A stretch of DNA of 33,263 nucleotides from NCBI RefSeq assembly GCF_009733735.1, contig NZ_WNJP01000014.1, forward strand, positions 1 through 33,263, written 5' to 3'. Origin of the DNA: Sandarakinorhabdus oryzae (GTDB lineage: Bacteria > Pseudomonadota > Alphaproteobacteria > Sphingomonadales > Sphingomonadaceae). The notes below the pieces were generated by a model that was not told the DNA's origin, ran no database searches, and saw only the letters and a list, made by a program, of their open reading frames with translations. Numbering within the stretch: position 1 is the first letter of the stretch; every line of letters begins with the position of its first letter. Below, in pieces: positions 28,742-30,923 of this stretch. Made by a program: the position numbers and the translations under genes.

Positions 28742-28774
28742 AAAGGGCCGCAGCACCCGCTGCGGCCCTTTTTT
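28742..28774 (+). terminator. Rho-independent terminator of ndk
   Basis: AAAGGGCCGCAG (28742-28753) pairs perfectly with CTGCGGCCCTTT (28760-28771) around a six-base CACCCG loop, and the T-run continues to 28774. It ends ndk transcription. Read from the other side the same stem is followed only by TTT, so it may weakly stop the convergent HNH gene as well. It marks the edge of the low-GC insert. Confidence 0.95.
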
Positions 28775-28778
28775 CTGA

Positions 28779-29810
28779 TCAAGATTGGCTTCGTGGGCGC
28801 ACGAAGCGTTTAGGAGACTGAATCCCACCTCTGTTGTTGCTCAAAGAAGTAATGAATAATCCTGTGGAAGGATCGTACACCGGCGGCCCCTTTATTGGCC
28901 TGTAGCGTTCGATCATGTGCGCGCACTCAATATCATCCCAGCTTCGAAAAATTTGCATCGAACCCTCCGCAAGGCGAACGTGCGAAAACGGCCGAACGGC
29001 ATTCTGCGTTACAATGAGCTCGTGGGGCGTTTCGAAGGATGTGTATAAGTGCGTCGCATCCCGAAGGGCAGCCTTGTAGTGAATGCGCGCAGAAACTTCT
29101 GAAAATTGCAGTGGGTGCAGTCGTCTTCCATCAAGATTTAGCGGGCCTTTTGGGCCCACCTCGTATTGGAGCCCTCCATCGTTCACAAACACTACGCCTA
29201 CACCGCCTAGCCGAACAGCAATGGACTGGCCTGCGAGATTAGTAGAGAAGTCAAATTCTCCGAAATCGTCATCTGGTTCGATCCGATACATGTATATCGT
29301 GAAAGGGTGTGGTCCATGCAGTGAATGAAATATAGTTCGCTTGCGCGCGCTTTGAAGGATGAATTGGGCCTGGGTAAATTCCTCCAGGAAATCATGTGAT
29401 ATTATTGATCCTTTTGATGGATCGCTTCGATCAAACAGAAGTGTAGTTTCTTTGACCAATATCCCTATAAAAATTTTGCAAAGCCACCGTCCGAAAGCAT
29501 ATCGAACAGATAAATTGTTGAAGTCAGGCTTTTGCAGAAATTTAATAATTTCTTGTTCAATGTTGCTTAAAAAGCCGCCATTGCATTTTTGACAGCAAGG
29601 AACTGTTAGTTTGCGATAAGGAATAAGAGTTCCGTTGAGCAAGGATAATTTTTTATCAAGCAGGTCAAAGCGGTGCTGTGCCCAGAGCGGTATGATGTGC
29701 TCGCCTAATCCAGTCGTTGGATCTCCGCCACATGCGAAACACTGGCCACCTACGAATGCGCCGCCTGATGCAGCGCGATCCATTATCGTTAGGATGTAAT
29801 CATCCATCAT
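28779..29810 (-). CDS. HNH-type zinc-binding protein, probable endonuclease (low-GC island gene)
   Basis: This 343-residue protein has an N-terminal HNH-like zinc module: CFACGG with Cys24 and Cys27, GEHIIPLW with Glu37-His38 in the place of the first catalytic pair, and VPCCQKCNGGFLS with Cys73, Cys76 and Asn77. This fits a zinc-stabilised beta-beta-alpha metal nuclease. The remaining 250 residues are mixed alpha/beta with no motif I recognise. Base use differs sharply from the neighbours: hand counts of two 60-base samples gave 32 and 22 G+C, with many A/T-ending codons. It sits alone between ndk and purN on the opposite strand to ndk and has no good ribosome site before ATG 29810 (a second ATG follows at once). 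It is probably acquired; a role in defence or mobile DNA is conceivable but not shown. Confidence 0.72.
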   Translation of the reverse strand: MMDDYILTIMDRAASGGAFVGGQCFACGGDPTTGLGEHIIPLWAQHRFDLLDKKLSLLNGTLIPYRKLTVPCCQKCNGGFLSNIEQEIIKFLQKPDFNNLSVRYAFGRWLCKIFIGILVKETTLLFDRSDPSKGSIISHDFLEEFTQAQFILQSARKRTIFHSLHGPHPFTIYMYRIEPDDDFGEFDFSTNLAGQSIAVRLGGVGVVFVNDGGLQYEVGPKGPLNLDGRRLHPLQFSEVSARIHYKAALRDATHLYTSFETPHELIVTQNAVRPFSHVRLAEGSMQIFRSWDDIECAHMIERYRPIKGPPVYDPSTGLFITSLSNNRGGIQSPKRFVRPRSQS

Positions 29811-29984
29811 AATTGATGCTGTTTATATCGGAATATCGAGGTGCACACTATATACAAAAATTGGATGAATAAATTTTAGATTGTTTCAAGATCTTTTGTA
29901 CAGAATATGTGCTTTTGCGATAGTTCGTTATATAAAACTAATTTACAGAATATTCTCAATATTTTTCTTATCATTCTTATCCGC
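29811..29984. other. AT-rich region upstream of the HNH gene
   Basis: These 174 bases lie between the HNH gene start and the purN stop. They are extremely AT-rich for this chromosome: bases 29881-29980 contain 24 G+C by hand count. The sequence should hold the HNH gene promoter, reading leftwards, but AT content makes any single -10/-35 choice unreliable. No RNA gene was recognised. GC content returns to normal at the purN stop codon. Confidence 0.75.
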
Positions 29985-30923
29985 TTAATACGGCAGCATC
30001 GCCAGCCGCCTAGGCGCGCACAGCCGCCACGCAGCGCCCAGCATCGTCTCGATCATCGCCCAGTCCGGCCCGTCGGTGAGCACCACACCCACCCAGCCGG
30101 CGGGGCCGAAATATTTGGGGCGGAAGAAGCGATCCGGGTCCTGTTCGATCAGCATGGCGGCTTCGTCGAGGCCGGAGACCTTCAGTAGCAGCGCGGTGAT
30201 GCCGTCGCCGTGGTGATTGTCGGAGAAATAGGCGAAGAACTTGCCGCCCTCGACGTAAAAGCCGGGGGAGCCGTGGGAGAGTTTCTCGGCCGCCGCCGGC
30301 AGATTGAGCGCCAGGCCGCGCACGCGTTCCAGCAGGGCGTCAGGGCGGTCAGCGGCGGAGACGAAATCGGCGAGCACGCGCGGGTAGAGCTGATGCTCGG
30401 CATAGCTGACGCGCACGGCGAGGCTGTCGGGCGTGTCGCCGGGAAGCACTTTCACGCGCGCCTGGCCCAGGATCGGGCCGTCATCCAGTTCAGGCGTGAC
30501 AATGTGGATGGTGCAGCCGGTTTCGGCCTCGCCGGCGGCCAGCACGGCTGCGTGGGTGTGCAGGCCCTTGTGTTTGGGCAGCAGCGACGGGTGGATATTG
30601 AGGCAGCGGCCCTGCCAGTGGTTGACGAATTCGGCCGAGAGCAGCCGCATGTAACCGGCGAGCGCGATGTGGGTGACACCGGCTTTCTCAAGTTCACGGG
30701 TGATGATGGCGTCGAACTCGGCGCGCTTCATGCCCCTATGGCTGTGCGCGAAGGTGGGAATGGCTTCGGCCTTGGCCAGTTGCAGACCCGCCGCGTCGGG
30801 ATCGTTGCTGCCCACCACCACGATCTCGTAGGGGCAATCATAGAGGCGGCTGGCATAGAGCAAGGCGGCCATGTTGCCGCCGCGCCCGGAGATGAGGACG
30901 CCGACTCTCGCCTTCTCAGGCAT
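29985..30923 (-). CDS. purN: Phosphoribosylglycinamide formyltransferase fused to a YjbR/MmcQ-like domain
   Basis: PurN formylates glycinamide ribonucleotide with 10-formyl-tetrahydrofolate in purine synthesis. The first 190 residues are a full Pur[15 protein letters not shown] phosphate loop, AGYMRLL, and the catalytic triad Asn109 and His111 in LNIHPSLLP and Asp148 in ELDDGPILG. Residues about 195-312 form a second domain with [32 protein letters not shown] and a terminal WVGVVL, a good match to the YjbR/MmcQ family (a double-wing DNA-binding-like fold of unclear role). Normal PurN is about 190-215 residues. ATG 30923 is chosen because it gives the standard N-terminus and overlaps the purM end by eight bases; the frame extends 16 codons further upstream. 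Confidence 0.92.

Follow-up and report, generated by a model that had tools for sequence, protein, structure and literature searches.

A horizontally acquired HNH-type gene in the ndk-purN slot of Sandarakinorhabdus oryzae encodes a candidate single-protein immune nuclease

Introduction

The window analyzed here (33,263 nt of contig NZ_WNJP01000014.1 from Sandarakinorhabdus oryzae) carries a single gene of strikingly low GC content in the gap between ndk and purN. This raises the questions of how the gene came to be there, whether related genomes use the same gap in the same way, and what the encoded HNH-type protein may do for its host. We addressed them by comparing the gap across the genus, by collecting the relatives of the protein from chromosomes, plasmids, and viral contigs, and by inspecting its predicted structure.

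Results and discussion

Composition and edges of the island

The stretch from the ndk terminator to the purN stop codon has the HNH-type gene as its sole occupant. Its reading frame starts with ATG and is intact, with no internal stop codon. When GC was scanned along the 33-kb window in 1.2-kb windows at 100-bp steps, the minimum fell at this gene (0.442, compared to a mean of 0.654 and a standard deviation of 0.041). The gene itself has a GC content of 0.473 and a GC3 of 0.456, compared to GC3 values of 0.83-0.87 for the neighbors, read as pepA, ndk, purN, and purM, and the 174 bp upstream of it are still poorer in GC (Table 1). The low-GC single-gene island described in the first-pass annotation is thereby borne out as the lowest stretch of the window.

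Both of the proposed edges were also recovered. The left edge is at position 28773 (gap position 53), just past the stem of the ndk terminator; beyond it, the DNA no longer resembles the ndk-purN gaps of four other genus records (L066, L052, L048, and L057). At the right edge, the foreign content extends up to the purN stop codon (29985-29987). The terminator is kept 3' of ndk in several genomes of the same genus. Because the stop codon of the HNH-type gene is only 8 bp from the stem, this gene, which is on the minus strand, may share the terminator, although just three Ts follow on that strand; a consensus terminator scan listed the stem on neither strand.

Table 1. Features of the ndk-purN slot and of the protein encoded in it (positions in the window).
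Feature	Positions	Strand	Details and basis
ndk terminator	28742..28771		perfect 13-bp stem, 4-nt loop; inverted repeat scan
Foreign slot content	28774..29984		left breakpoint up to the base adjoining the purN stop; end of similarity and GC
Gene of HNH-type protein	28779..29810	-	343 aa; ORF and relatives
C-terminal alpha/beta domain, residues 139-305	28896..29396	-	AF2 model of residues 96-305; proposed sensor
Long helix, residues 100-127	29430..29513	-	AF2 models; possible linker
Putative HNH module, residues 24-90	29541..29741	-	alignment, predicted strand-strand-helix order, sub-threshold HNH_5 match, phrog_10503 match
AT-rich upstream region	29811..29984	-	27.6% GC; promoter-like site at 29902-29873

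The window locus showed neither a mobility gene nor shared ends. Between 28600 and 30200, there are no direct or terminal inverted repeats apart from the terminator and an AT palindrome. The two promoter-like matches in the AT-rich upstream region are no excess over the mean of 1.8 obtained with shuffled sequences. An intron was considered and dismissed, as the Rfam matches between 28600 and 30100 are all below threshold and lie on the ndk terminator region. A plasmid DNA search with the slot itself as query returned no match. Judged from composition and context, the HNH-type gene is of foreign, horizontally acquired origin.

Content of the ndk-purN slot across the genus

The ndk gene was found in 23 of the 24 genomes of the genus, and longer stretches around it were read for 20 of the 22 other genomes and for the window. 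In G399 and G409, no HNH match was found within the ndk loci with their 1.5-kb flanks. The slot could be measured in the 18 of 20 records where both ndk and purN were found (L053 and L062 have no purN in the stretch). It is near-empty in three of these 18 records (49, 70, and 97 bp, as calculated from tblastn ends) and comprises 418-2224 bp of varied content in the other 15. Among the 10 records whose purN shares at least 86% identity, none has an empty slot. The HNH-type gene occupies the slot in only one of the 21 records read, which is the window itself. Another member of the genus (G167) also has an HNH-type gene, at a different locus (L040), and the gene is thus not syntenic among close relatives.

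Five records (L048, L051, L052, L065, and L066) have an unrelated gene of about 300 codons in the slot (e.g., L052:5022-5942). Its products are 81%-100% identical to the L052 copy and lack a Pfam match. One of the five is the slot of G167 (L048). A search of the window genome for this gene, run without a positive control, gave no match. Among the other slot contents are a ParE toxin (L054, confirmed with PF05016) and, by eye, a GNAT-like protein (L049), an HtpX-like protease (L055), and others. Because five relatives hold another slot gene and this gene was not found in the window genome, the slot content has probably been exchanged rather than simply added, and we consider replacement at least as likely as insertion. 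The earlier view that the insertion disrupts nothing is therefore no longer taken as given.

At the locus of the G167 member (L040:18000-19383), GC-rich hairpin repeats flank the gene on both sides; by eye, these are REP-like.

Sequence of the protein and profile matches

The CxxC, EHIIP, and CxxCN motifs reported in the first-pass annotation are indeed found at the N-terminus of the protein. In the HNH nuclease superfamily, the invariant histidine of the motif acts as general base. Profile matches to this region are weak. Pfam HNH_5 (PF14279), which has the same CxxC ... CxxCN HNH-type motif, matches the window protein at E 0.12 and 12.8 bits, below the gathering cutoff of 27.5 bits, and scores 17.4 and 19.5 bits with the relatives L244 and L242. 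It matches six of the 13 members of alignment A1 at E <= 1, with 1.5e-5 as the best value. About 250 residues of the C-terminal part are outside the HNH_5 model. Of the PHROG families, phrog_10503 and phrog_38451 are the closest, both with a function given as unknown. The match to the first covers 75 of 251 profile positions and is confined to the N-terminal part of the window protein (residues 24-100, E 1.7e-4); four of the six members of alignment A4 match it as well (best E 6.2e-6). For single family members, some of the matched PHROG families bear the name HNH endonuclease.

The window protein matches none of the PADLOC-DB 2.0.0 families at E <= 10, has no match in NCBIfam, and gave no credible match in PDB sequence searches; 2vsh (E 0.047) was taken as a chance match. 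In the literature consulted, no description of this protein family was recognized. A term search in the accessible part of PMC9519451 found neither HNH nor DUF3883, and in that of PMC9122126 HNH is likewise absent and DUF4238 occurs in one passage.

Predicted structure

AF2 models were obtained for the whole protein (pLDDT 71, pTM 0.74) and for residues 96-305 (pLDDT 81, pTM 0.79). In the predicted order, the HNH module is followed by a long helix and then by an alpha/beta domain. Within the module, strands are predicted for residues 54-56 and 62-64 and a helix for residues 74-93, an order which fits beta-beta-alpha. When the whole model was compared to PDB and viral structures with Foldseek and VIA, no match rose above noise; in PDB, the IscB chain 9lir_D (Z 2.5) stands amid unrelated rows. 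The C-terminal model, compared to PDB with the same tools, did not yield a match above noise either, so that the C-terminal domain is as unrecognized by fold as it had been by eye. Since it lacks a fold match, its designation as a sensor is a guess from the model.

The arrangement resembles that of type IV restriction enzymes of the EVE-HNH and SRA-HNH types (VcaM4I, TagI), which, according to the parts of the descriptions available to us, likewise combine an HNH module, a long helix, and a second domain in one protein. They differ by the position of the HNH module, which is N-terminal in the window protein, and by their EVE or SRA domains, which are not matched there. In VcaM4I, the HNH dimer is described as restrained by a linker helix, and the HNH module as toxic in isolation (PMC7897488, seen in part). 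By analogy, helix 100-127 is a possible linker or autoinhibitor.

The same resemblance invites a special case of an immune function, namely that the protein is a modification-dependent (type IV) restriction enzyme with a C-terminal domain which reads modified bases and an HNH module which cuts. The plan of nuclease, helix, and domain would be that of VcaM4I in reversed order, there is no methyltransferase gene adjoining the window gene, and one relative (L042, see below) adjoins a type I restriction-modification locus. However, none of the structures compared, whether of SRA, EVE, or other folds, matched the C-terminal model, even if a missing match is no exclusion. We consider this special case unlikely, if worth keeping in mind.

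Distribution and conservation of the family

Relatives of the protein are rare and patchy. Single-protein searches found them in eight of 397 genomes of the family Sphingomonadaceae and in three of 385 genomes of the class, and a search with alignment A1 in three of 397 genomes of the phylum, the window genome being included each time. Five of the eight family-level genomes have weak matches, with 28%-34% identity over part of the protein. Two of the 11 genus genomes in the family-level search have an HNH-type gene. A close relative (L009) is encoded on a contig of a metagenome-assembled genome from Sphingomonadales. Plasmid relatives come from Rhizobium, Agrobacterium, Bradyrhizobium, Acetobacter, Sphingobium, Peribacillus, and Lactiplantibacillus. 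With alignment A1 as query, four viral contigs were found to carry a family member; the scan with the Lactiplantibacillus member gave no viral match, and alignments A3 and A2 gave only contigs known from A1.

A set of 23 members was aligned. It does not contain L046 (a 66-residue match after which the frame is broken), L243 (a distant HNH protein, 39.5 bits), L012 (the same protein as L011), the plasmid matches H4 and H6, and duplicates. Nine residues are invariant in all 23: E37, H38, P41, W43, Y65, N77, E85, W109, and D211. An invariant histidine and an invariant asparagine, by which HNH (beta-beta-alpha-metal) modules are recognized, are thus both found in the alignment. Nor are the N-terminal cysteines poorly conserved: C24 is kept in 22 members, and C27, C73, and C76 in 21. 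The exceptions are L045:7673-8563 and L246:7926-8900, which form a pair on a long branch and in which at most one of the four zinc-type cysteines is left, with the E-H and N residues kept; with an earlier GTG start, L045 also has the first cysteine.

Because identity to the window protein drops to about 20% across the family, the tree is a rough guide, and its long branches call for caution. In it, viral contig L071 and L015, the member on a Firmicute plasmid, form one group (100/99), and a second group (100/100) joins viral contig L069 to the members from rhizobial plasmids and sphingomonad chromosomes. For the plasmid pair L011/L013, a dN/dS of 0.09 indicates purifying selection; for the window gene and its nearest relatives, dS is saturated. 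The GC content of the gene is at least 5 points below that of its flanks in 17 of the 23 members but not in six; within the 23, L011 and L013 have near-identical proteins.

Exchangeable slots in plasmids and viral contigs

In the Agrobacterium plasmid pTi_CFBP2407 (L013), DUF3991-toprim and dnaE2 flank a segment with the family gene, an HTH gene, and a PIN gene. These two outer genes are also found in pRvVAR0630b, where they bracket a DUF6088 gene (which we take to be an AbiEi-type partner), an AbiEii/AbiGii-type gene, and a cold-shock gene. The left side and the three inner genes are the same in Rhizobium lusitanum p_2, where dnaE2 is unannotated at the right in an incomplete gene table.

Across L258, L259, and L013, the DUF3991-toprim slot alternates between an AbiEii-type pair and the HNH, HTH, and PIN genes, with dnaE2 at the right of L013 and L258.

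In viral contig L071, the family gene is located between terL and portal. This junction was compared for L071 and 79 of the 80 loci among the portal matches listed, the remaining one being on the contig of L071 itself; six of the 80 records compared lack one of the two genes and were dropped. Among the matches listed, the remaining 74 junctions span 4-11 bp (36 cases, read as empty), 71-128 bp (12), or 423-1985 bp (26), and the family gene was found in one of the 74, which is L071 itself. In viral contig L069, the family gene is upstream of a small HNH/terS region. It has no match in 79 loci related to L069, many of which do not cover the slot, and five related loci with the same outer genes have other sequence in the slot. 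Read from these sequence comparisons, family members are occupants of exchangeable slots in chromosomes, plasmids, and phages.

By eye, the larger terL-portal junctions (L071 and L078-L156) hold PAPS-reductase-like proteins, AAA ATPases, toxin-antitoxin-like pairs, a membrane protein, and others.

A lone gene with an HNH-type motif between phage genes, as in L071, is also what a free-standing homing endonuclease gene would look like. Such a gene would cut the allele with an empty slot and be copied in by repair, and the available part of PMC10448857 states that phage homing genes are often near essential genes. The weak PHROG matches, some to families named HNH endonuclease, fit as well. Against homing, the family members read have no common insertion site, and their hosts and slots on chromosomes, plasmids, and viral contigs are unrelated. 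When the window gene is compared to its three closest relatives, the similarity is confined to the gene and stops at its edge, with no common flanks. Some of the replacing occupants are AbiEii-type or toxin-antitoxin-like, and 50,697 phage records gave no tblastn match with two family members as queries. Taken with the members found in restriction-modification, retron, and PD-Lambda-4_A loci (see below), this makes homing quite improbable.

The protein might also be an accessory nuclease for DNA metabolism or plasmid maintenance with no immune role, or the gene a decaying passenger. The rhizobial plasmid members L010-L013 are near dinB, and L011-L013 near dnaE2/imuA genes; this and the isolation of the window locus would suit such a reading. 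Both are at odds with the rare and patchy distribution and with the invariance of the catalytic-type residues in 23 of 23 members, and the dN/dS value argues against decay, in the L011/L013 pair only. We regard this explanation as improbable.

Defense genes near relatives

No defense neighbor was seen at the window locus. Several relatives have such neighbors. In L041 (60% identity), RT_II-A (E 4.9e-105) and NDT_II-A (E 2.1e-63), a PADLOC retron, are 5.8 kb away, and a phage integrase is also present. In L042, the family gene is 11 bp behind hsdR in a type I restriction-modification locus that also comprises hsdS and the 3' part of hsdM. In L015, a NOV_C/DUF3883 gene is 29 bp upstream of the family gene. 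In L010, an annotated DNA repair exonuclease and an AAA ATPase nearby were read as SbcCD-like, and matches to LmuB are weak.

The Sphingobium plasmid member (L244) has two such associations. A DUF4238 gene (L244:9221-10162; PF14022, E 7.7e-32) overlaps its 3' end by 4 bp, and PD-Lambda-4_A (1205 bits), the one component of PD-Lambda-4 looked for, is divergent from it, with one annotated hypothetical CDS in between. According to the passage available from PMC9122126, a lone DUF4238 protein confers strong resistance to T7. The annotation tables read for other plasmid members do not list a DUF4238 partner; eight plasmid records hold a DUF4238 relative, that of L244 included.

For 10 loci, 147 neighboring ORFs were pooled and scanned with PADLOC (E <= 1e-25), 25 of the 50 family matches being listed. 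The ORFs were called heuristically, and the test set includes the HNH ORFs of L240, L241, and L242. Among the matches listed are the retron, the type I restriction-modification system, and SoFic, the last being placed in L242 by its Fic motif (the ORF with this motif is 4 kb from the family gene). The control, 150 ORFs from 10 windows of the same genomes, matched 10 PADLOC families; its matches (RtcR/PspF-like, IetA/TRIP13-like, and RTasPolA) are presumably housekeeping lookalikes. Among the matches listed, a defense protein is thus found at three of the 10 test loci and at none of the 10 control loci (one-sided p about 0.1), and an enrichment of defense genes around relatives is suggestive only. 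Among the pooled PADLOC matches listed, there is no defense neighbor for L040, L043, L044, L045, L046, L240, and L241, and there is none in the annotations of L014, L245, and L246.

Next to L243, the distant HNH protein outside the 23-member set, a TIR gene was observed.

The suggestion in the first-pass annotation that the gene is defense or mobile-element cargo thus gains from the context of some relatives and not from the window locus itself, and the proposed role is one that we infer.

Proposed function

We lean slightly toward the reading that the gene is horizontally acquired single-gene cargo for a stand-alone immune nuclease, with an HNH module that would be restrained by a C-terminal sensing domain. 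The N-terminal module, putatively supported by zinc and of the beta-beta-alpha-metal type, probably cuts DNA. The long helix would hold it against the C-terminal domain and so keep the nuclease off. Upon phage or plasmid entry, the C-terminal domain would sense a cue, such as a phage protein or unusual DNA, and release the module, so that the invading DNA or the infected cell would be destroyed. Given that the window locus showed no mobility gene and no shared ends, the gene has probably spread by recombination in its flanks, or inside plasmids and prophages.

Known anti-phage hotspot cargo, such as the DUF4238 protein and AbiE, likewise occupies exchangeable slots as lone genes or small units. 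One family member overlaps with a DUF4238 gene, and an AbiEii-type pair is found in the same plasmid slot of a relative. The window protein itself is unrelated to these systems, and the likeness is drawn from sequence and context.

More tentatively, we propose that the relatives constitute a family, as yet undescribed, of HNH immune nucleases that consist of one protein and restrain themselves. Their C-terminal trigger would have a fold unmatched in PDB, and they would serve as interchangeable slot cargo across Alphaproteobacteria, Firmicutes, their plasmids, and temperate phages, with a cysteine-poor branch (L045/L246) and one member associated with DUF4238.

The protein is not placed by Pfam, NCBIfam, or PADLOC, although its relatives are repeatedly found as lone cargo of slots which other genes fill in related sequences. 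For the genus, the ndk-purN gap is a ready cargo slot for a survey. As a candidate that consists of one gene, the HNH-type protein is testable by cloning this gene alone, and if its C-terminal domain works as proposed, that domain would be a new trigger module.
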